The translations under genes were made by a program, and so were the position numbers. DNA of 64,000 nt from Planctomicrobium piriforme (lineage in GTDB: Bacteria; Planctomycetota; Planctomycetia; Planctomycetales; Planctomycetaceae). Positions 5,972 to 21,370 of this stretch are shown here, piece by piece (the first letter of the stretch is position 1; each line of letters starts with the position of its first letter). The notes below the pieces were generated by a model, which was not told where the DNA came from, did not search any database, and worked only from the letters and a program-made list of their open reading frames with translations. The stretch covers positions 1-64,000 of the forward strand of contig CAMATH010000019.1 in NCBI GenBank assembly GCA_945860955.1, in the 5' to 3' direction.

Positions 5972-7039
5972 TCAAATGTCCTCGATTTCAATGGGAATTT
6001 TGGACGACGCTTCTGGAACTTCCCGGACGTATTTCGGGATCGCATATCCCGGGAGTCGACCAGCAAGCTGTGCCACCAGCGCGAGCCCGACTCTTTCCGG
6101 AACTTCGAAATGGGCCGCGCCGGCGACTCGGTCGAGCTGGTGCAGGTAATAAGGGATCACTCCCAGGTCGACTAATCGCTCAGACAACAGCGCCAGCGTG
6201 TCCACCGAGTCATTCACTCCTGCCAGGAGGACAGACTGATTGAGAGTGGTGATCCCTGACCGGACGAGTCGGCGCAACGCGTCGGCACAGTCGCGGACAA
6301 TCTCGTTCGGATGATTGGCGTGGATCACAACAACGGGAGTGGTTCGCGCGGCTGTCAGGATGTGAATCAACCGGTCACTGACTCGCGCGGGCAGGACCAC
6401 GGGCAGCCGGGTGTGGATTCGCAGCCGGTTCACGTGCGGAATCGCATCAATATGTTCCACCAGGTCCGACAGCCGGCTGTCGCTGAGAACCAGCGGATCT
6501 CCCCCGCTCAGAATGACTTCGTGGATCGAAGAATCCGCCTGGATCTGATCCAGAGCGGGTCGCCAGTCCTCCCGGCGACGGGGCGCGGCGTCGTACGGAT
6601 AATGCCGGCGGAAACAATACCGGCAGTGGACCGCGCACGCCCCGGCGGCGATTAGCAGAACACGTCCCTGGTACTTGTGGAGCAATCCGGGGGCGATTTC
6701 GGCGGCGGTGTCACCGACCGGATCATTCGAAAAACCCGTGACACCGTCCGCTTCTGCGTCCAGCGGAAGCACTTGACGAAGCAATGGGTCGCCGGGATCC
6801 CCGATTCGCATTCGTGCGAGAAAGCTGCGGGGAACAACCACCGGGAAGAGACTCGCGGCGCGTCGGGCCGCTTCCCTGACGGCAGTCGACAGCTCCAGGG
6901 CGTCACAGAGTACATCGGGATCCCGAATCGCGGCCGCGAGCTCGGTGGGCCAATGCGCGGTACCTGCCGAGAGATCGGTGACCTTTGATGGGACGACCTG
7001 TGGAAGGAGAGTCGCAGTCGGGGGAATGGGGTGTGGCAA
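5972..7039 (-). CDS. epmB: EF-P beta-lysylation protein EpmB (KamA-type lysine 2,3-aminomutase)
   Basis: 355 aa. Radical SAM motif CAVHCRYC (CX3CX2C) followed by FRRHYPY, then IHEVILSGGDPLVLSD, as in the KamA/EpmB family. It lacks the longer C-terminal oligomerisation part of clostridial lysine 2,3-aminomutases, which fits EpmB. EpmB makes (R)-beta-lysine, which is attached to a conserved lysine of EF-P. The efp gene starts 136 nt away on the other strand and its product has that lysine. The only plausible start is TTG at 7039: upstream the frame closes without ATG or GTG. No epmA is in the window. Confidence 0.88.
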   Translation of the reverse strand: MPHPIPPTATLLPQVVPSKVTDLSAGTAHWPTELAAAIRDPDVLCDALELSTAVREAARRAASLFPVVVPRSFLARMRIGDPGDPLLRQVLPLDAEADGVTGFSNDPVGDTAAEIAPGLLHKYQGRVLLIAAGACAVHCRYCFRRHYPYDAAPRRREDWRPALDQIQADSSIHEVILSGGDPLVLSDSRLSDLVEHIDAIPHVNRLRIHTRLPVVLPARVSDRLIHILTAARTTPVVVIHANHPNEIVRDCADALRRLVRSGITTLNQSVLLAGVNDSVDTLALLSERLVDLGVIPYYLHQLDRVAGAAHFEVPERVGLALVAQLAGRLPGYAIPKYVREVPEASSKIPIEIEDI

Positions 7040-7067
7040 CCGGAAATCCGCTCTGTTATCTTGAAGT

Positions 7068-7083
7068 GCAGTTCACAAACTGC
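7068..7083. promoter_or_regulatory. Inverted repeat GCAGTT-CACA-AACTGC between epmB and efp
   Basis: A perfect 6-bp palindrome around CACA in the divergent intergenic region. It overlaps the possible -35 of efp, so it could be an operator for either gene. No regulator is known; this rests on symmetry and position only. Confidence 0.35.
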
Positions 7084-7099
7084 GTGAAATGAATAAGAT
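7072..7099 (+). promoter_or_regulatory. Possible sigma70 promoter of efp
   Basis: TTCACA, 16-nt spacer, TAAGAT, each one base from consensus. It ends 76 nt before the efp start and is the best match in this gap. Confidence 0.4.
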
Positions 7100-7175
7100 C
7101 CGCATCTGAATTCACTTTTCAGAGGCGATTCTTCAGGATTGCTGTACTCAAGGAACGGAAGCGGGAACCAGACTG

Positions 7176-7745
7176 ATGCCGAACATCAACGCGGGTGAGT
7201 TTCGTAAGGGAATCAAGGTCGTACTCGAAGGCGATCCCTACGACATGCTCGAAGTCAATTTCGTGAAGCCGGGGAAGGGGCAGGCGCTCTACAAGTGCCG
7301 GCTCCGAAACCTGCTCAAGAATACCATCATCGACCGCACGTTCAAGAGCGGCGATGGACTCGATTCGGCCGACGTGCGGAAGGGGGACGGGCAGTTCCTT
7401 TACGTTGAAAAAAATGGCCTGGTGTTCATGGATCAGGAGTCGTTTGAGCAGTACACGGTCAAGAAAGACCTGATGGAAGGCCGGGACGTCTGGCTCCAGG
7501 ACGGTATGATTTGCGCGTTGACCTACTACAACGATGCCGTGATCGAGGTCGAACCTCCCCCGCACGTCAACATGAAGATCACCTACACCGAGCCCGCCGT
7601 CCGTGGCAATAGCTCGGGCAACATCACCAAGGCCGCAACGGTCGAGTCGGGAGCTGAGATTCAGGTTCCCTCGTTCATCGACGTCGGTGAGACCGTGCGC
7701 ATCGATACACGAACCGGTTCCTACGTCGAACGGGTGAAGGTGTAA
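7176..7745 (+). CDS. efp: Translation elongation factor P
   Basis: 189 aa, the usual length. Three-domain EF-P: KOW-like N-terminal domain with the modifiable lysine at residue 34 in the loop KPGKGQA, then two OB domains. The C-terminal signature SFIDVGETVRIDTRTGSYVE is intact. EF-P relieves ribosome stalling at polyproline. Lys34 and the adjacent epmB predict beta-lysylation rather than rhamnosylation (Arg) or 5-aminopentanol modification. Start ATG at 7176. Confidence 0.96.
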   Translation: MPNINAGEFRKGIKVVLEGDPYDMLEVNFVKPGKGQALYKCRLRNLLKNTIIDRTFKSGDGLDSADVRKGDGQFLYVEKNGLVFMDQESFEQYTVKKDLMEGRDVWLQDGMICALTYYNDAVIEVEPPPHVNMKITYTEPAVRGNSSGNITKAATVESGAEIQVPSFIDVGETVRIDTRTGSYVERVKV

Positions 7746-7846
7746 CTTGCGGGTGGCGCGCGAATCGCGTTTCCCTGTCTTCTGAAGTCTTTCCGTTTCC
7801 CGCTGTGAATCGTCCCGGCGGGGAGAACACCCGGCAGTGAACCGCC

Positions 7847-9343
7847 ATGAAGCCTGATCAGGCCGCGCACAATTACCGTCTCTACATCGAAACTGTCGGC
7901 TGCCAGATGAACATGCTGGACAGTGAACTGGTTGTGGCCGCTCTGCGCAAACAGGGATACCAGTTGACCGCCGACATCGCCGAGGCGGATACGATTCTGT
8001 TCAATACCTGCAGCGTACGGGAACACGCCGAACACAAGATCTACAGCGCCCTCGGCCGGCTGAAGCACAGCAGATCGCGGCGGCCGGATCAGGTGATCGG
8101 CGTGATTGGCTGCATGGCGCAGAAAGATCAGCAGTTGATCTTTCAAAAAGCGCCGCACGTCGACCTGGTTGTGGGAACGGGGCAATTGGCGCAGATACCG
8201 GAACTCGTCGCGCAGTCGCGGGCGGACCGCGAAAAACGCGTCGCGGTCAGTCTCGACCGACGCGACGCCACGAGGCAGCAGGTCTCCGACAGTTTCCAAA
8301 GCTACGATCCGCTGCGCGATCCGGAAATGCGTCCGTCGCCGTTTCAAGCCTTCGTGCGGATCATGATCGGATGCGACAAGTTCTGCACCTACTGCGTCGT
8401 TCCGATGACGCGCGGTCCCGAGCAGAGCCGGCCGCCGAAAGACGTGCTGCAGGAGGCGACTCGACTCGCCGGTGAAGGGGTTCGAGAAATCACTCTGCTG
8501 GGCCAGACGGTCAACAGTTACAAGTACACGGTGGATGGTCGGATCTGGCGGCTGTCGGATCTGCTGGAGTCGCTCAGTGGTGTCGCGGGAATCGAGCGGA
8601 TCAAGTTCGTCACGAATTTCCCGCGAGATATGACCGACGACCTGCTTCAGGCGGTGCGTGACTTGCCGAAGGTCGCCCGTTATCTGCATGTGCCCGTGCA
8701 GTCGGGCTGCAACGACCAGCTCAAGCGGATGAAGCGGGGCTACACGGTCGAGGAGTATCGCGAGATGATGGCGCGGATTCGCGCGACGGTTCCGGGCTGC
8801 GCCGTTTCCAGCGATTTCATTGTCGGGTTTTGTGGCGAATCGGACGAGTCGTTCCAGAAGTCGGCGGATCTGCTGCGGGAATGCCGTTTCAAGAACAGCT
8901 TTATTTTCAAGTACAGCCCCAGGCCCGGGACCAAGGCCGACGAACTTTTCGCCGACGATGTGCCAGAAGAGGTGAAGCGCCGCCGCAATAATGAACTCCT
9001 CGCCATTCAAAACGCGATCAGTGAAGAAGACAACGTCGCGTTGATCGGACGTGAATTTGAAATTCTCGTCGAGGGCTTGAGCAAGACCGCCAAGAAGGAA
9101 CAGCTTGACGATCCGCGAGTCGGCGGCACGATTCAGGAAAACACCGGTACGTGCGACGACCATCCGCAACTCGTCGGGCGGACCCGGTGCGATCGAATCG
9201 TCGTCTTCGAAGGAAATCCCCGGCTGGTCGGATCGCTGGTCGACGTTCACGTCACCGACTGCACGCAAACGACATTGATTGGTTCGATTGTGACGCGTGA
9301 ATTTCAACACACGGGGTCGGATCTGTTGCCGATTCTGGCTTGA
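7847..9343 (+). CDS. miaB: tRNA-2-methylthio-N6-dimethylallyladenosine synthase MiaB
   Basis: 498 aa. The N-terminal UPF0004 domain has the three cluster cysteines (VGCQMNMLDSE, FNTCSVREHAE, VIGCMAQ). The radical SAM core has GCDKFCTYCVVPMTRG (CX3CX2C), with CAVSSDFIVGFCGE further on. A C-terminal TRAM domain ends the protein. MiaB adds a methylthio group to i6A37 of tRNAs reading UNN codons. It is 101 nt downstream of efp on the same strand and may be co-transcribed with it. Start ATG at 7847. Confidence 0.93.
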   Translation: MKPDQAAHNYRLYIETVGCQMNMLDSELVVAALRKQGYQLTADIAEADTILFNTCSVREHAEHKIYSALGRLKHSRSRRPDQVIGVIGCMAQKDQQLIFQKAPHVDLVVGTGQLAQIPELVAQSRADREKRVAVSLDRRDATRQQVSDSFQSYDPLRDPEMRPSPFQAFVRIMIGCDKFCTYCVVPMTRGPEQSRPPKDVLQEATRLAGEGVREITLLGQTVNSYKYTVDGRIWRLSDLLESLSGVAGIERIKFVTNFPRDMTDDLLQAVRDLPKVARYLHVPVQSGCNDQLKRMKRGYTVEEYREMMARIRATVPGCAVSSDFIVGFCGESDESFQKSADLLRECRFKNSFIFKYSPRPGTKADELFADDVPEEVKRRRNNELLAIQNAISEEDNVALIGREFEILVEGLSKTAKKEQLDDPRVGGTIQENTGTCDDHPQLVGRTRCDRIVVFEGNPRLVGSLVDVHVTDCTQTTLIGSIVTREFQHTGSDLLPILA

Positions 9344-11819: not shown

Positions 11820-12266
11820 CTATCGGCCAATCTGGAACAATCGCACCAGGGACCGTACAGTCACAACTGGCACGATCAACACAACGCCGATAAGGGTCAA
11901 TACCGACAGGTACAAGACAGACAGCACCGAGACAACCGACGGCTTTCCCGTCGCGAAAATAATTGGGTCGGCCAGCAGACGCTTGCAAGTCGAGTACCCC
12001 GTTCGACTCGACCGGGACCATGCCGCGAGCAGTGGACCGTAGTACTTGTACAGACACCAGCCAATTGCCAGCAGCGGATTCCACACAAACGTGCGACGAC
12101 ATCGGGCATGAACTTGTCGAGATTGTCGACTGTTCATGCCGTAGGTGGCTGTAACCACGAAACATGACGCACTGCCGCCGGCATTTGGGGGCTGGGCCGA
12201 GCCCGTCGACGGTGGTGGCGGATTTCCGTCGCGAATAATCTGTCCATGCTTGTCGATGCGCGCCAT
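11820..12266 (-). CDS. CFI-box membrane protein, last gene of ubiquitin-like operon
   Basis: 148 aa. Residues 35-43 are CFVVTATYG, matching the CFI box (CFIATAAYG) of CFI-box-CTERM proteins; WNPLLAIGWCLYKYYGPLLA downstream also fits that family. A Pro/Gly/Ser-rich tail precedes the box, and a hydrophobic segment lies near residues 110-135 (VLSVLYLSVLTLIGVVLIVP), so it is probably membrane-bound. It lies 48 nt after the E1 gene on the same strand. Start ATG at 12266 with GGAAG nine bases upstream. The biochemical role of the CFI box is not known to me. Confidence 0.7.
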   Translation of the reverse strand: MARIDKHGQIIRDGNPPPPSTGSAQPPNAGGSASCFVVTATYGMNSRQSRQVHARCRRTFVWNPLLAIGWCLYKYYGPLLAAWSRSSRTGYSTCKRLLADPIIFATGKPSVVSVLSVLYLSVLTLIGVVLIVPVVTVRSLVRLFQIGR

Positions 12267-12314
12267 TTCAGCGAACTTCCAGGTGGGGTTGGTGAGTGAA
12301 CCGTTCGTGAGTTG

Positions 12315-13472
12315 TCAAATTGTGACAAGTCGGCAGTGAGGGCAGTCGTCGCGTCTCCGGACCTCGATCGAACGGGTGATCTGCAGCGCGTGGTCAAACA
12401 GCTCACTTCGTTCGCCGCCGATGGATCTGCTGTTGGTATTGCACACCAGCGTGAACTGACGGAGATCTCTGAGCAGTCGCGGCTGGTATTCCGCCGGGTT
12501 CCCAAAACTCAATAGGTCCAGCGCGATCTTGGATCCGATCGTCGTTACGAAACCAATATCGACTGCGATTCCCGGCTCGAATTGCACTTCGGCCGGATTC
12601 AATTCGCCGATGTAGTGCTGTCGATTCGCTGACACTCGACCCGACAGTGCGTGTTCCGCGCCCCCAAAAACGCAGTAGTAGCACGGGGTGCTTCCCGGAA
12701 GGCTCCAGAACAATTCGCCGGCAAACGCGCGTTCCCACAATCCAATGGACAGAAACGGAATCCTCGCGATGCAGGAGATCTGGTTGGCGTACACGTCTCC
12801 CTCGCGGTTGTCGGCACAGCCGACGATGATGCTGCGGTCGTCGCACCACTCCTGGAATACGGCCGGCGGGACCATCTGCAATGTGGAATTCAGTGTGAGA
12901 ATCCTGGCTTGCGGATGAATTTCGAGTATGCGGTCACGCAGCGCTTCGACCTTCCAGCGGCCAACATCGGTGATGCCGCACTGGTGACGACAGATGTTGT
13001 GGTACGCCAATACGTCATTGTCGACGAGAACAAATCGACCAACTCCGGAACGGGCCAGGTCGAGTGCCAGTTGACTGCCGACGGATCCACAACCCGAGAT
13101 GATCGCACAACATCCCAACAATCGGGAACTCTCGAGAATTCCAGTGTTCCGAGAGAAAACATCCTGCGTCAGGGAGTACGACTGCGCCCGACAATTGGCG
13201 GTGCCGACTGTGAACTGAATCCCGTCGTGCGTATAACGGCCGACGAGACGCCCATGCTCCACGGGCGACACCTGCTGATCACCGGGCGCAAGAGTTCCGA
13301 GTTCCACGGGGGGACGAATCATGGGGGGGCGCGACGGGGGCGCTCCACACGCGAGGAGATTGTAGACACCGGTTCCCTCGTGCGCATATCCGAACAGTGG
13401 TCCGGACACGCGCGGCTGCGCTTCCATCCACTCCGAGGGAAACAATACTGTGGGAGTTGTTTGCGAATTCAT
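12315..13472 (-). CDS. E1-like ThiF/MoeB-family adenylyltransferase with extra N-terminal domain
   Basis: 385 aa. The ThiF/E1 core starts near residue 120: nucleotide loop GCGSVG (127-132), VDNDVL (150-155), the activating pattern CRHQCGITDVGRWKVEAL and the VGCADNREG segment. Two zinc-type CxxC pairs lie at 264-267 (CYYC) and 377-380 (CPHC). E1 enzymes adenylate the C-terminus of a ubiquitin-like protein. About 120 residues precede the core; LFGYAHEGTGVYNLLACG there could be a degraded JAB-like fold (inference). The start overlaps the JAMM gene stop (ATGA). The E2 and JAMM neighbours argue against thiamine or molybdopterin sulfur transfer. Confidence 0.88.
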   Translation of the reverse strand: MNSQTTPTVLFPSEWMEAQPRVSGPLFGYAHEGTGVYNLLACGAPPSRPPMIRPPVELGTLAPGDQQVSPVEHGRLVGRYTHDGIQFTVGTANCRAQSYSLTQDVFSRNTGILESSRLLGCCAIISGCGSVGSQLALDLARSGVGRFVLVDNDVLAYHNICRHQCGITDVGRWKVEALRDRILEIHPQARILTLNSTLQMVPPAVFQEWCDDRSIIVGCADNREGDVYANQISCIARIPFLSIGLWERAFAGELFWSLPGSTPCYYCVFGGAEHALSGRVSANRQHYIGELNPAEVQFEPGIAVDIGFVTTIGSKIALDLLSFGNPAEYQPRLLRDLRQFTLVCNTNSRSIGGERSELFDHALQITRSIEVRRRDDCPHCRLVTI

Positions 13473-14686
13473 GAGTGGGGCTCCTGCGGATAGAGAGGTC
13501 GAGGTTCGGAGTTGGGAACGGAAACGTCTTCCTGCGGTTCGTCGTGGTCGCTGGATTCCTGACGTTCTTCAAGCGAATTTGCTTGGTTCTGACTCGGGCT
13601 GACGAAATCAGGATCAAGCCACTGCGCGTAGAATGTCCGCAGGAAATCCGGCTGATACGCGACCTGTACGCCATCGACCGCGACGACTGGTTGCCCGTCG
13701 ACTTGGTAAATGACCAGGTCGACTGTGGGGTGACCGCTGGTCTCGTTGGAAGCTGTCACCGCGACCCTGTAGCCCGGTTCCTGGGGCGAAACCAGGTACC
13801 GGGGGCGCGGTCGGAGTGAATCCACCCAGTCGAGTTCCGTTTCGATGAGGTCAAGAATCAATACCTGCTTGGGTGAACCCGGCCCAACATTCGGTTCCTG
13901 GTGAACTGCCCGGGCGACGTCTCGCGAATGCGTTCCGCCTGGATGCAGCACGCTCGGTTGGCGCGGCCCGGCATCGATTCCCAGAAAGCTCCACATACGA
14001 TCGAAAAAACCGCCCGGGGGATCGGTTGACGGTTCGACAGAACGCGTTCGATCGGGTTCGCCGTCTGGCAATTCGTTTCGCCAGCGGACGCGAGTCTCCA
14101 TTTCGCGAACATCGTTGTGTTCGGCGGCCTGTTGAAATCGACGTATCGCCTCTGGATTCCGCGGCTTGCGAGTCAGGCTCGACGCGATTTCGGTGGCGAT
14201 CCGCTTCCGGACAAGGGTCTCCGGAAAATGCTGAATTCCAATCTCTACGGGCACCCGGGCATTTTGGCGCGGGGAGTCGATGCGATAAAAGGTCAATCGA
14301 AAAGTCGGATCGATATTGACCAGTCCAGAGACGATGGAATGACCGCACAATCGCAGGTATTCGCCATGGGTCTGATCGTCGGTGCGCGAAAATGTGTCCA
14401 GACTTCCCGGGTGCCGATGCCACAGTCCGATGAGCTGCAACGGAGTTTCGTAACGACGCGCCACTTTGTTTGCCAGGTGCGTCGCATATTCCGAATTGTA
14501 TTCAAAGTAGGCAGGTTGCAGAATCGAACGGGGACCGGGATCGAGGACTTCGACAACGTAGTACGAACCGCTGATACACCGCCCGAGCAGAATCCCGCCG
14601 GTTTCCGTGTTGGGATGTTCCGCTGTCTCGAGCACCAGGTCGCGGAAGGAATCTTCAGTGAAATAGACTTTGGTCGTGAGATTCAT
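13469..14686 (-). CDS. JAMM/MPN+ metalloprotease (JAB domain) with long C-terminal extension
   Basis: 405 aa from ATG at 14686. An upstream in-frame start at 14737 adds 17 residues without a ribosome site. The JAMM signature is complete: Glu28 (TETGG), His90-x-His92, Ser100, Asp103 (WHRHPGSLDTFSRTD), so a zinc isopeptidase is expected. Residues about 175-270 are polar and low-complexity. A further conserved-looking part lies at about 275-375 (VLILDLIETELDWVDSL, then VIYQVDGQPVVAVDG). The tail is acidic, Ser/Gln/Pro-rich. In E1/E2 operons such enzymes process or remove the modifier. Its stop overlaps the E1 start. Confidence 0.88.
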   Translation of the reverse strand: MNLTTKVYFTEDSFRDLVLETAEHPNTETGGILLGRCISGSYYVVEVLDPGPRSILQPAYFEYNSEYATHLANKVARRYETPLQLIGLWHRHPGSLDTFSRTDDQTHGEYLRLCGHSIVSGLVNIDPTFRLTFYRIDSPRQNARVPVEIGIQHFPETLVRKRIATEIASSLTRKPRNPEAIRRFQQAAEHNDVREMETRVRWRNELPDGEPDRTRSVEPSTDPPGGFFDRMWSFLGIDAGPRQPSVLHPGGTHSRDVARAVHQEPNVGPGSPKQVLILDLIETELDWVDSLRPRPRYLVSPQEPGYRVAVTASNETSGHPTVDLVIYQVDGQPVVAVDGVQVAYQPDFLRTFYAQWLDPDFVSPSQNQANSLEERQESSDHDEPQEDVSVPNSEPRPLYPQEPHS

Positions 14687-14767
14687 GTGTGTCACCAATA
14701 GCAGGAGCCGAGTAATCGGTTGAAACATCCGCCGCATTGTCAGTGGCGCTCGGCCAGCGGCACCGAG

Positions 14768-15313
14768 TCACACGTGTTGCGAGAATTCGTCGAACGTGAT
14801 TTCGTCGCTGAGGTACAGTTCGAACAACCCAATCCACTTGGCCGCCCACCCGAGCGCTGAAACCGCTGACGTCGTCACACGTCCGGTTTTGAAGTCCTCG
14901 CGTCTCGCGGTGCAGAGATAGACCGATCCTGCGCCGTCCCGCAACAGGTGCGGAATTGGAATTTGTTTCATCAATTCGTCAAGATCGGGATCAATCATAT
15001 AGATCTTGACCGAGCCACCGTAGGTGTCGTTACTCGGATGATTGTGATCGTACACCGCATGCAGCGTGAAGGTCGGCCGGCCCCCGTCCATCAGCCCGGG
15101 GGCGATCTGACCGAACCAGGACAGGCGACCATCCGATTCCTTGCGAAGTGTGAAATTCCTGAATGGCGATTCTGGGCGAGTCATCGCATGACACTCAAGT
15201 CGAAACAACTCGGGGTCATTCTCGTACCAGTAGAAAGACGCCGCAAATCGCCCTGGGGGAACGCTAATCGTGGGGCGCTCAATCTCGCGAAGGGCGCGGT
15301 CGTCAGTATGCAT
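14768..15313 (-). CDS. E2-like (UBC-fold) conjugating protein
   Basis: 181 aa from ATG at 15313, chosen for GGAG eight bases upstream; an upstream ATG at 15373 adds 20 residues. The central part has the E2 order: strands DGRLSWFGQI and TFTLHAVYDHNHPS, then SVKIYMIDPD, then HLLRDGAGSVYLC with Cys134 where an E2 catalytic cysteine would be and His122 twelve residues earlier. Cys41 is the only other cysteine. The fold call rests on this pattern and on the JAMM and E1 genes next to it, not on strong similarity. Its N-terminus (ERPTISVPPGRFA, 12-24) resembles the C-terminus of the upstream 70-aa protein. Confidence 0.7.
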   Translation of the reverse strand: MHTDDRALREIERPTISVPPGRFAASFYWYENDPELFRLECHAMTRPESPFRNFTLRKESDGRLSWFGQIAPGLMDGGRPTFTLHAVYDHNHPSNDTYGGSVKIYMIDPDLDELMKQIPIPHLLRDGAGSVYLCTARREDFKTGRVTTSAVSALGWAAKWIGLFELYLSDEITFDEFSQHV

Positions 15314-15453
15314 GTGATCCACTCCGGGTTGATCGATTGGGGGGGGCGCACCAGGCGACCCATGGTGAAGCAATCAGACACAATTTATGTGGGGCGGTTG
15401 ACGAAACGGCCAACGCCAACACGCACCGCCGCACGGCCGACAAAAAATTGACC

Positions 15454-15666
15454 TCAGGTGGCCAACTTTCCCTGAGGAACGACAATTGTCGGCCGTTCGG
15501 CTGTTGGGGATTCGCTGGCCTCATTTGGCAGCGTGAGGTGTCCCCCACTGGATACCACAACCGATTCACCGCGCAGCAATGCCTGACGCATCGATTTCCT
15601 GGCATTCTTCAGTGATTCGTCGTCCGACGGGGCGGCCAGAACGGAGTGAAGAATTCGAATCCGCAT
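15454..15666 (-). CDS. Small 70-aa protein opening the E1/E2/JAMM operon; possible modifier or truncated gene
   Basis: 70 aa. The start ATG at 15666 has a strong ribosome site (AAGGAG, six-base spacing), unusual for this genome. No ubiquitin beta-grasp or C-terminal di-Gly is visible; it ends GKLAT. The N-terminal part MRIRILHSVLAAP precedes a charged helix-like segment. The C-terminal ERPTIVVPQGKLA matches ERPTISVPPGRFA near the E2-like N-terminus. It occupies the place of the ubiquitin-like gene in Bil-type operons, so it could be the modifier, a leader, or the remnant of a longer gene. No identity is claimed. Confidence 0.6.
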   Translation of the reverse strand: MRIRILHSVLAAPSDDESLKNARKSMRQALLRGESVVVSSGGHLTLPNEASESPTAERPTIVVPQGKLAT

Positions 15667-17273: not shown

Positions 17274-17480
17274 ATGAGCATTTTTTGTCGAATTGACGAC
17301 AAGCACGTTCCACTGTACCGGGTGCTTTGGGTGTCGGCGACGCCTCACTTTTGCGGCGAGGCTGACTGCCAGTGCGAAGGCCGGCATGAGATCGCGCTCG
17401 AAGGGGGAGAGTCGGTCTGGGCCAATTTCGAAGAGAAGGAGCGGTTGCTTCAGATGATTGAGGAATGGCAGCAGAACTAA
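17274..17480 (+). CDS. Small Cys-rich conserved-type protein, unknown
   Basis: 68 aa from ATG at 17274 (a TTG at 17247 is a weaker alternative). It has a cysteine cluster HFCGEADCQCEG in mid-protein that could bind metal, and an acidic C-terminal helix (FEEKERLLQMIEEWQQ). Its stop TAA overlaps the next gene's ATG by one base, which suggests coupling and supports it as a real gene. I do not recognise the family. Confidence 0.6.
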   Translation: MSIFCRIDDKHVPLYRVLWVSATPHFCGEADCQCEGRHEIALEGGESVWANFEEKERLLQMIEEWQQN

Positions 17481-20400
17481 TGCAACCCTGGGAATTCTGG
17501 ATCGATGTGGGCGGCACGTTCACCGACTGCATCGCCCGCAGTCCGGCGGGCGATCTCGTTCAATGCAAGGTTCTCAGCTCGGGGGTGACCAAAGGGCAAG
17601 TGGTCGAAACCCAGGGGACCAATCGTATCCTCGATCCGGGAAGAATCGGCGATCCTCCCGGGTTCTGGGTCGGATACGAACTCCGGCTGCTCGACCGCGA
17701 GGGATCCCCCGTGCTGGTGACTCGGGTCACCGGGTTCGACAGCCGGACCGGTTCGCTGACCTGTGCCGCGCTTCCGCCCGAGATGCCGCTCCCGGCTGCG
17801 TACGAACTCGCCTCGGGCGAGGAAGCGCCGACACTGGCGATCCGCAGGGTTCTGGGGATTCCGCTGGCGATGGCGCTTCCTGCGGTGTCCGTCCGACTGG
17901 GGACGACCCGGGGAACGAACGCGCTGTTGACCCGCCGCGGCGCGCGAACTGCGTTCATCACGACGCGCGGTTTCGCCGACGTGCTGCTGATCGCCAATCA
18001 GGATCGGCCCCGCCTGTTCGATCTGGAGATCCGCAAGCCGGAACCGGTGTTCGAACGTGTCGTGGAGATCGACGAACGGCTCGACGCGGAGGGGCATGTG
18101 CTGCGGGCACCCGACGCGGCGACCGTGGCGGAACAGATGCGGCAGCTCAAGTCGACCGGAGTCGAATCCGTTGGAATCTGTCTGTTGCACGCGTTCGCCA
18201 ATCCCGCGCATGAAGAACTGGTCGAGCGACTGGCGCGAGAGACGGGATTCACCGAGGTCAGCACGTCAAGCCGCCTCGCGCCGTTGATAAAGATCGTCTC
18301 GCGGGGAGACACGACCGTGGTCGATGCGTACCTGAACCCGATTCTGCGGCGGTATGTGCAAACGCTGCGCGGGTCACTTCCCGGGAGTTCCTTGCGGTTG
18401 ATGACATCGGCCGGTGGCTTGGTTGAAGCAGATCGATTTGTCGGAAAAGACAGTATTCTGTCGGGACCGGCAGGCGGGGTCATTGGATTCTCGCGCGTTG
18501 CGCAGCGAGCTGGCTTTGAGCGGTCGATCGGCTTCGACATGGGGGGCACGAGTACCGATGTCTCCCGGTTTGATGGCCGATATGACCTGGAGTACGAGAC
18601 GAAGAAAGCGGGGGTGCGGGTGGTCGCGCCGATGCTGGCGATTGAAACGGTCGCCGCTGGCGGCGGCAGCGTTTGTGAATTCGATGGAGTGAAGTTGACC
18701 GTTGGCCCCGACAGCGCGGGGGCGAATCCAGGACCGGCCTGTTATGGACGGGGCGGTCCATTGACGGTGACCGATGTCAATTTGTTTCTCGGACGGATCA
18801 TTACCGAGCGATTTCCGTTCCCGCTCGATTTGGCCGCTGTGGAGCGTCGACTGACGACGCTGTGCGATCGCATCGCCGTTGCGGGGGCGACGCGCTATTC
18901 GCCGGCGGAACTCGCGGACGGGTTTGTCCGGGTGGCGAACGCGAACATGATTCGCGCGATCCGGAATATCTCGGTCGCGAAGGGGTACGATCCGCGGGAT
19001 TACGTGCTGGTCACGTTTGGCGGAGCCGGCGCGCAACATGCGTGCGCGATCGCGCGGGAGCTGGGGATCGCCCGGGTGTTGTCGCACCCGCTCTCGGGGT
19101 TGTTGAGCGCGTATGGAATCGGCCTCGCCGACGTGCGGCGGTTTGGCGAACGGTCGGTGCTACGACCGTGGTCGGTCGAAGAATGCGACCGATTGGAATC
19201 GCTGTTTTTGGAACTCGAGGCGAAGGCCCGGGCCGAGATTCTCGCGGAGGGGATCGCCGAATCCGAGATCCAGCCGGTCCGCCGATCGCTGGATTTGCGG
19301 TACCAGGGGGTGGAAGCGACGATCAATGTGGCGTGTCCACTGATCGCCGACGGTTCCCCCCATGGGGGACACCCACAAACCGATTTCGATTTCGCGGCCC
19401 GGTACCAGGAACTGCATCAGCAGACCTATGGCTATCGCCATCAGACGCGGGGTGTGGAAATCGTCGCGGCCCGGGTCGAATTGACGGGCCGGACTCCGGA
19501 ACCGGTCGACACGTTCCGGGAGGCCGTGGACCGCCAGCTCGCTCCCGAGCGGATGGTCGAGACGTGGTTTGACGGTCGGCTGCTAGCGACCGGAGTCTTC
19601 ACACGCGATCAGCTCGCCCCGGGTGACCGCATCACCGGTCCCGCCATCCTGTGCGAACCGACCTCCACTGTCGTTGTCGAGCCGGGTTTCATCGCGCGCA
19701 TTCTTTCACGCGGGGAAATCCTGCTGGAAGACACCGGAACCGTCGGGCGGAACACGGTGTCGACCGAGGCCGACCCGGTGCAACTGGAGATCTTCAACAA
19801 TCTGTTCGCGTCGATCGCCGAGCAGATGGGCATCACCCTGCAACGGACTTCGTTTTCGACGAACGTCAAAGAGCGGCTCGATTTCAGTTGTGCCGTGTTC
19901 GACGCGCAGGGAAACCTGGTGGTCAACGCCCCGCACATTCCGGTCCATCTGGGTGCGATGGGGGAGACGGTGAAGCGGATCATCGCCGACAATCCGGAAA
20001 TCGCCCCGGGGGATGTGTTTGTCACCAACGATCCATACCGCGGCGGATCGCACCTGCCCGATGTCACCTTGATCACCCCGGTGCATCATGAGGCGACCGG
20101 CCGGCTGTTGTTTTTCACCGCCAGCCGGGCTCATCATGCCGAGATTGGCGGGATTGTCCCGGGGAGCATGCCCCCGTTCTCGAAGACTCTGGCGGAAGAA
20201 GGGGTACTGATCCGCAATTTTAAGCTAGTCGACCGGGGAGTCTCTCGCGAAGCCGATCTCCAAGCGCTGCTGCAGTCGGGCCCGTATCCGACGCGTTCAG
20301 TCCGCGACAACCTCGCCGACGTGTCGGCGGAGGCGGCGGCCAATCACAACGGCGTGCAGCAACTGCGGCAACTGGTCGATCGCTACACGTTGCCTGTTGT

Positions 20401-21370
20401 GGAAGCGTACATGGGGCACATCCAGCTTGTCGCCGAGCGTAAAATGCGACTGGCGCTGGCGGCGATCCCCGACGGGTTGTACGAGTTTCGCGATCACCTC
20501 GACCAGGGATCGGCGATTCAGGTGGCGATCACCATTGAAGGGGACTCGGCGGTGGTCGACTTCACCGGAACCGGGCCGGTCATTCAACTGGCGGCCGGCT
20601 CCGTGAATTCGGGGGGACTCAATCTCAACGCGAATCGGGCGATTGTGACGGCGGCGGTGCTGTATGTGTTCCGTTGTCTCATCAACGAAGACATTCCACT
20701 CAACAGCGGGGTTTTGGCACCGGTGAAACTGATTTTGCCGCCGTGCCTGCTGAATCCGCCCGAGCATGAGGATCCCGCGCAGTGCGCGGCGATCGTGGGG
20801 GGGAATGTGGAGACGTCGCAGCGGGTGGTAGACGTTTTGTTGGGGGCGCTGGGTGTCGCCGCCGCCAGTCAAGGAACGATGAACAACCTGACGTTCGGTG
20901 ACGGGACGTTCGGATACTACGAGACGATTTGCGGTGGTTCGGGCGCGACGCGTCATGCCGACGGAGCCGACGCCGTCCACACGCACATGACCAATACGCG
21001 GTTGACCGATCCGGAGGTGATTGAGCGCCGATACCCGGTGAGGGTCTGGGAATTCGCGATCCGGCGTGGTTCGGGGGGACGAAATCCCAGCGGTGAGCCG
21101 GCCGGTCAGGTCGGACACCGTGGGGGAGATGGAGTTCGGCGAACGCTGGAATTCCTGAAGCCGTTGCGAGTGTCGATTCTGTCGGAACGGCGCGGGCCGT
21201 ATGTTCCTTTTGGACTCGATGGCGGAAGCCCCGGAACATTGGGGGTCAACACGCTACGACGGGTGCAAACGGGTGAGACAGTGGATTTGGGGGGCAAGGT
21301 TCAGTTGGAGGTCGTCGCTGGAGATATTCTGACCCTTGAGACTCCCGGCGGTGGCGCGTGTGGCGTTTGA
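17480..21370 (+). CDS. Hydantoinase/5-oxoprolinase family protein, HyuA-HyuB fusion
   Basis: 1296 aa from ATG at 17480 (an ATG at 17465 is possible). The HyuA N-terminal domain opens with [11 protein letters not shown]; the HyuA core follows with [17 protein letters not shown] and, near 345-360, [18 protein letters not shown]. After about residue 770 the HyuB part begins ([17 protein letters not shown], then [10 protein letters not shown]). The single chain and length match eukaryotic-type 5-oxoprolinases and bacterial fused hydantoinases. These enzymes use ATP to open a cyclic imide or lactam. The exact substrate (5-oxoproline, hydantoin or related) cannot be told from sequence. Confidence 0.9.

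Follow-up and report, generated by a model that had tools for sequence, protein, structure and literature searches.

A predicted ubiquitin-style conjugation operon in Planctomicrobium piriforme with a candidate GKLA peptide modifier

The DNA analyzed here (the window) is a 64,000 nt stretch of Planctomicrobium piriforme, corresponding to positions 1-64,000 of the forward strand of contig CAMATH010000019.1 (assembly GCA_945860955.1). Five ORFs lie head to tail on its minus strand, spanning 15666-11820, and all five ORFs described in a first-pass annotation of this DNA are present. That annotation had also reported an ATGA overlap between the JAMM and E1 genes, which is seen in the sequence, and an AAGGAG ribosome-binding site lies immediately 5' of gene 1 (15454-15666). 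The genes and the features discussed below are as follows:

15454-15666, minus strand: gene 1, the candidate modifier, 70 aa
15460-15471, minus strand: GKLA end of the modifier, a putative processing site before an extra C-terminal Thr; conservation stops at GKLA
14768-15313, minus strand: E2-like (UBC-fold) enzyme, 181 aa
15242-15313, minus strand: apparent leftover modifier tail before the E2 (...PTISVPPGRFA/ASFYWYE), its position matching the fused modifier ends of relatives
14912-14914, minus strand: codon of E2 Cys134, the candidate catalytic cysteine, invariant in 59/59 sequences
13469-14737, minus strand: JAMM/JAB metalloprotease, 422 aa, with a long C-terminal extension
12315-13472, minus strand: E1-like adenylating enzyme, 385 aa, with an N-terminal beta domain of ~100 aa and a ThiF domain
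13077-13094, minus strand: GCGSVG nucleotide loop of the E1 (residues 127-132), invariant or nearly so in relatives
11820-12266, minus strand: gene 5, a membrane protein, 148 aa
12231-12260, minus strand: RIDKHGQIIR motif of gene 5, near its N-terminus (motif scan)

The operon has ordinary flanks: genes for a glycosyltransferase and a radical SAM/SPASM protein adjoin it at one end, and a gene for a CHAD-domain protein at the other. The window also contains a plus-strand ORF at 17465-21370 (1301 aa), whose sequence suggests a fused hydantoinase/oxoprolinase.

The E2-like protein has no Pfam or NCBIfam match. It matches several PADLOC E2 profiles (best 1.2e-8), and the E2 of a Thiomargarita relative (L002), which is 49% identical to it, is confidently predicted by AlphaFold2 to adopt a UBC fold. 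This model, made for the L002 modifier-E2 fusion from 72 sequences, reaches a pLDDT of about 85-97 in most E2 blocks; its nearest structure is the Serratia CBASS E2 8yjy_B (VIA Z 9.4), with UFC1 at a Z of about 9. Both the earlier E2-like call for 14768-15313 and the UBC-fold check proposed for it are thus borne out through a close relative. Cys134, which had been picked out as the candidate E2 cysteine, is the residue kept in every sequence compared, the window included.

The JAMM protein matches Prok-JAB (Pfam) at 8.9e-9, and the five ligands already recognized in it (E45, H107, H109, S117 and D120) are invariant in 60/60 sequences, counting that of the window. Its true start may be an inner ATG (MNLTTKVYF). 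In several related loci (L003, at 6798-7988, L004, L006, L007, L008 and L010), the JAMM protein carries a C-terminal E2-like domain that has no Cys (UEV-like); our search for a hidden domain of this kind in the C-terminal extension of the window JAMM gave no match.

The E1 matches the ThiF/E1 family of Pfam at 1.8e-25. Its GCGSVG loop is intact and its two CxxC pairs are present, both as previously noted; the pairs, which are of zinc type, are retained in about half of the relatives and lost in the rest. AlphaFold2 predicts an E1 fold for the window protein (58 sequences, mean pLDDT 82), and comparison of this model with UBA5 gives a VIA Z of 24.1. The nearest solved E1-fold protein by sequence is MccB (1.7e-16), which is also ranked first by Foldseek. 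Cys128, Cys161 and Cys165 are invariant and Cys344 nearly so. We expected residues 271-343 (the crossover loop) to carry the catalytic cysteine of canonical E1s. This stretch contains no conserved cysteine, and 53/58 sequences have no Cys there at all. This E1 therefore has the adenylation fold and the GxGxxG loop and lacks the canonical thioester cysteine, which makes a full thioester relay uncertain. It is possible that the peptide passes directly from the adenylate to the E2, or that another E1 cysteine is used.

Scanning 84,980 species genomes for the E1 yielded 61 related loci, nearly all 40-55% identical, from one archaeon and six bacterial phyla. Most belong to gut Bacteroidales, Clostridia and Coriobacteria; others come from Thiomargarita, Methanosarcina, a spirochaete and two planctomycetes. 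The order E2-JAMM-E1 is kept in 57 of the 58 loci in which all three enzymes were found, far more often than chance would produce. Of the three with no E2 match, two are truncated at a contig end, and in L039 the JAMM and E1 are joined in one protein. Thus, within this E1 subfamily, E1 and JAMM do not occur apart from the E2 in most genomes, the outcome that the first-pass annotation had named as fatal to the system call. Phylogenetically, the window E1 clusters with those of Thiomargarita, Methanosarcina and a Chitinophagaceae bacterium, apart from the other planctomycetes, in a tree whose long branches make its exact place unsure. Among 59 genomes of the host and its kin, an E2 of this kind occurs only in the host, and across 392 genomes of the phylum the other E2 matches are weak. 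Together, the tree position and the confinement of the E2 to the host among its kin point to horizontal transfer of the operon. We also looked for plasmid carriage and found none.

We now turn to gene 1, which had been listed simply as a small protein, with the remark that no beta-grasp modifier was visible. The ORF exists and we found no beta-grasp either, but gene 1 sits in the modifier position, which had been overlooked, and is itself conserved and central to these loci. Neither Pfam nor NCBIfam has a family for its product, and profile searches gave no match to any Ubl family. The relationship first emerged from a search with the five window proteins, which in many loci matched short ORFs immediately 5' of the E2 and also the N-terminal ends of E2 fusions. 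A profile made from 56 modifier units, with the window gene outside the training set, matches gene 1 at 2.5e-11, and finds the family in 56/61 related loci as well as in the window. Three of the five loci that gave no match (L054, L060 and L061) begin at a contig end near or inside these genes.

The candidate modifier has a core of about 45-50 aa and is encoded either as a separate gene of ~55 aa immediately 5' of the E2, or as near-identical copies fused to the front of the E2. The separate form is found in Clostridia (about 54-60 aa, with endings GKLA, GKLAR, GKLAKED and similar), in Coriobacteria and in the window, where the product ends ...TIVVPQGKLAT. In Bacteroidales, Thiomargarita and other relatives, the E2 carries the fused form, with one unit or two (three in L005). 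Every unit ends in (P/Q)xGKLA or a near variant, and an IPxGRLA stretch resembling this end is often found at the extreme N-terminus. Relatives end at GKLA, continue for 1-3 residues, or run on into a fused E2. The window has both a separate modifier (GKLAT) and a VPPGRFA stub before the E2, a layout that is identical in Methanosarcina. Where they could be aligned in register, tandem units share 94-100% identity in protein and 81-97% in DNA; in the two-copy proteins of L028, L033 and L035 the units are 100% identical in protein, with DNA differing by up to 14%. For the separate copies, pN/pS is 0.06-0.23. The modifier homologues are under purifying selection, and near-identical tandem units together with low pN/pS are what a constrained protein shows when, like polyubiquitin, it is produced from a multi-copy precursor.

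In the AlphaFold2 model of the L002 fusion, the modifier part is predicted to consist of one helix and a short hairpin, followed by a flexible tail, at a pLDDT of about 52-75. With this fold and a GKLA C-terminus, it differs from a beta-grasp modifier ending in Gly, and we conclude with moderate confidence that the modifier is not a beta-grasp. Its fold may need a partner, since the model is of an E2-fused homologue and has low pLDDT. When the fused model was used for a fold search, the E2 domain filled the match list. No convincing second copy of the modifier was found elsewhere in the host genome (best E 0.33). Gene 1 is likely to be the modifier, and the attached tag is most likely a short peptide that lacks the ubiquitin fold and ends in Gly-Lys-Leu-Ala. 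To our knowledge, the known modifiers of E1/E2 type end in glycine, and a C-terminal alanine is unusual.

The same architecture could be read differently: the small protein might be a pro-segment that regulates or inhibits the E2, with the real modifier a beta-grasp protein of, for example, ThiS/MoaD type encoded elsewhere. Its fusion to the N-terminus of the E2 in Bacteroidales and Thiomargarita, and the stub retained on the window and Methanosarcina E2s, would be in line with this. However, a pro-segment is hard to square with the separate genes of Clostridia, Coriobacteria and the window, and with conservation that stops sharply at GKLA, and identical tandem copies with a conserved GKLA end fit a tag precursor better than an inhibitor. 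We consider the pro-segment explanation unlikely.

Given a peptide modifier, we compared the operon with known systems. The first-pass annotation had likened its gene order to that of Bil operons, and this is correct: as in BilABCD, the order is modifier-E2-JAMM-E1, with a JAMM and a dedicated E2. The proteins themselves differ. BilA has two ubiquitin-like domains and resembles ISG15 (PMC11354881), whereas the modifier here is about 50-70 aa and has no beta-grasp. BilB carries a CEHH motif (C, E at +6, H at +8, H at +13; PMC11354881), while the window E2 has D, K and T at +6, +8 and +13 after Cys134. BilD comprises an inactive and an active adenylation domain and a Cys domain (PMC11354881), in contrast to the single 385-aa E1 with one ThiF domain and no Cys domain found here. 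Lacking an ISG15-like BilA, a CEHH motif and a two-part E1 with a Cys domain, the operon is not a Bil system. CBASS type II (Cap2/Cap3) and the short CBASS systems with an E2 resemble it in their E2, through the Serratia structure 8yjy, and in having a JAB deconjugase; however, this operon has no nucleotide cyclase and its E1 and E2 are separate genes, unlike the E2-E1 fusion of Cap2. No CD-NTase was found among the five operon genes and the three flanking genes profiled. The UBA5-UFC1 pair of the UFM1 pathway also has a minimal E1 of the same fold and an E2 that the L002 model resembles, but UFM1 is a beta-grasp protein and the UBA5 catalytic cysteine is missing from the equivalent stretch of the window E1. 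Pup and UBact are likewise small tags that are not stable beta-grasps. Pup ends in Gly-Glu/Gln and is attached by the ligase PafA rather than by an E1 and E2; no PafA-type ligase gene is present in the operon.

MccB activates the heptapeptide of microcin C7. It is therefore like the E1 described here in activating a short peptide, as well as in sequence, but it works without an E2 or a JAMM, its product is an antibiotic, and no match to it was established for the N-terminal domain of the window E1. E1, E2-like and JAB genes also occur together in operon types 6a-6e (Iyer et al. 2006, PMC1779556). Those types that have a modifier use beta-grasp proteins, and a GKLA peptide, whether on its own or joined to an active E2, is absent from the descriptions of all of them (PMC1779556). 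In the literature we could search, which excluded subscription-only papers, we found no description of this arrangement. E1-E2-JAMM conjugation is already known; what appears new within that literature is that the tag is not a beta-grasp and that it can be fused to the E2.

Gene 5 had been described as a membrane gene with a CFI box. A membrane protein does belong with the system, but the conserved feature is not the CFI box, for which a motif scan of the ORFs in related loci turned up zero cases. Gene 5 has no match in Pfam (E<=1) or NCBIfam (E<=10), CFI box included. Its resemblance to relatives lies in an IDxxGxIxR motif at the N-terminus, with a membrane segment after it. The gene directly 3' of the E1 has a similar N-terminal motif in L002, L004, L009, L021, L025, L048 and others, and in Clostridia a B-box-like membrane protein bears the motif at its C-terminal end. 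A terminal D/E/N-x-x-G-x-I-x-R motif was counted 48 times in neighbour genes against 5.7 in shuffles, a contrast whose independence is overstated by the counting of related proteins; the opposite-strand control gave 3/192. Proximity leads us to guess that motif-bearing membrane proteins such as gene 5 might be the conjugation targets.

Other neighbours recur in the relatives. In 33/61 loci, an FtsK/SpoIIIE-type ATPase is encoded near the E1, together with WXG100-like and coiled-coil proteins. This cassette, which resembles a type VII-like secretion locus, is not in the window operon. The host genome carries an unlinked one (L075; G000 contig C65:10320-15719) with a 1364-aa FtsK/SpoIIIE-type ATPase, two small helical proteins, one of them a WXG100 (4.2e-8), and a coiled-coil-like gene. 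Among the 59 genomes of the host and its kin, 42 have the ATPase (E<=1e-60) and the host alone has the E2. In the 24 genomes with no adjacent cassette, it was not found in 16, and the weak matches in the other 8 resemble ordinary FtsK. Because kin have the ATPase without the E2 and these 24 genomes contain no clear relative, the cassette is an optional partner and not an obligate one. PrsW or M48 membrane proteases also recur beside the relatives, and in three loci a PrsW intramembrane protease fused to a Cys-less E2-like domain is encoded near the JAMM and E1 (L004:6760-7977, L009:6795-7943 and L010:2057-3262). Such Cys-less E2-like domains, fused to JAMM or PrsW, are accessory domains of the sort one would expect where a tag is read or removed, and they count in favor of a tagging system.

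An E1 closest in sequence to MccB, found so often near an FtsK-type ATPase and WXG100-like genes, could instead belong to a peptide natural-product pathway, in which an MccB-like enzyme activates the precursor, the JAMM is a leader peptidase and the FtsK/WXG100 cassette is the exporter. We know of no such pathway with conserved E2s or Cys-less E2 relatives, and here the E2 has an invariant Cys and Cys-less relatives. The peptide sequence is strongly conserved, and 24 genomes offer no clear exporter. We regard a natural-product pathway as quite improbable.

The first-pass annotation had also suggested a role in defence, and this received no positive support: around the window the genes are ordinary, and relatives adjoin the FtsK/WXG100 cassette or PrsW/M48 proteases. 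A Bil- or CBASS-type antiphage system would account for the Bil-like gene order, the weak kinship of the E2 to a CBASS E2, the patchy distribution suggesting horizontal movement, and the copy next to a recombinase and a methyltransferase described below. It is difficult to reconcile with the lack of a Ubl, a CD-NTase or defence genes among the profiled flanking genes, and with matches to defence profiles only at the broad level of the E1, E2 and JAB families. A defence role is thus possible but unsupported, and we rate an antiphage system as the least probable explanation considered here. The related copy just mentioned lies on an IMG/VR contig (L080:1160-13050) with E2, JAMM, E1, FtsK-type ATPase and WXG-like genes. 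These genes directly follow a putative serine recombinase, with a predicted DNA cytosine methyltransferase upstream, and this is the clearest mobile context seen among the relatives.

We favor, at a probability of roughly 70%, the interpretation that the operon is a self-contained system for ubiquitin-style conjugation whose modifier is not a beta-grasp. The genes, their linkage, their catalytic residues and the conservation and architecture of the small protein are observed, and the E1 fold and, through the relative, the E2 fold are supported by predicted models; from these we infer the reaction steps, cleavage site, substrates and purpose. The most economical reading of the sequences would be a ubiquitin-style cycle that uses a GKLA peptide tag and acts at the membrane. 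In our model, the GKLA protein would be translated with a C-terminal extension of a few residues, or, in relatives, as part of an E2 fusion that holds one or two copies of it, and the JAMM protease would trim it after ...GKLA. The MccB/UBA5-like E1 would then adenylate the exposed C-terminal alanine, and the peptide would pass to Cys134 of the E2, possibly straight from the adenylate; this direct transfer is considered in view of the missing cysteine at the canonical E1 position. The E2 would place the peptide on targets, probably membrane proteins with IDxxGxIxR such as gene 5, and the JAMM protease would take it off again. The broader proposal is that bacteria and an archaeon have in common an E1-E2-JAMM cascade with a short, largely unfolded GKLA tag, made in relatives from tandem E2-fused precursors, and that the cascade works on membrane proteins or the FtsK/WXG100 secretion machinery. 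We give this proposal about an even chance.

E1-E2 conjugation is taught as the chemistry of a single fold, the ubiquitin beta-grasp. If our model is right, machinery and tag would be separable, with the E1, E2 and JAMM kept and the tag swapped for a short peptide, and the system would offer a simple model for how an E1 recognizes its tag. It could also connect the tagging of proteins with secretion and membrane proteolysis in bacteria. The kinship to MccB makes it possible to test for a link between the activation of peptide antibiotics and ubiquitin-type tagging, and relatives in culturable Bacteroides open the system to testing.

Two further sequences are worth recording. One locus (L037:4237-5703) encodes a 488-aa protein composed of an E2-like N-terminus, a modifier-like helix and a further region. 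An unverified 'Bacteriophage sp.' scaffold (L081, MT836827.1:605-1711), which may be a bacterial fragment, encodes a 44%-identical E1.
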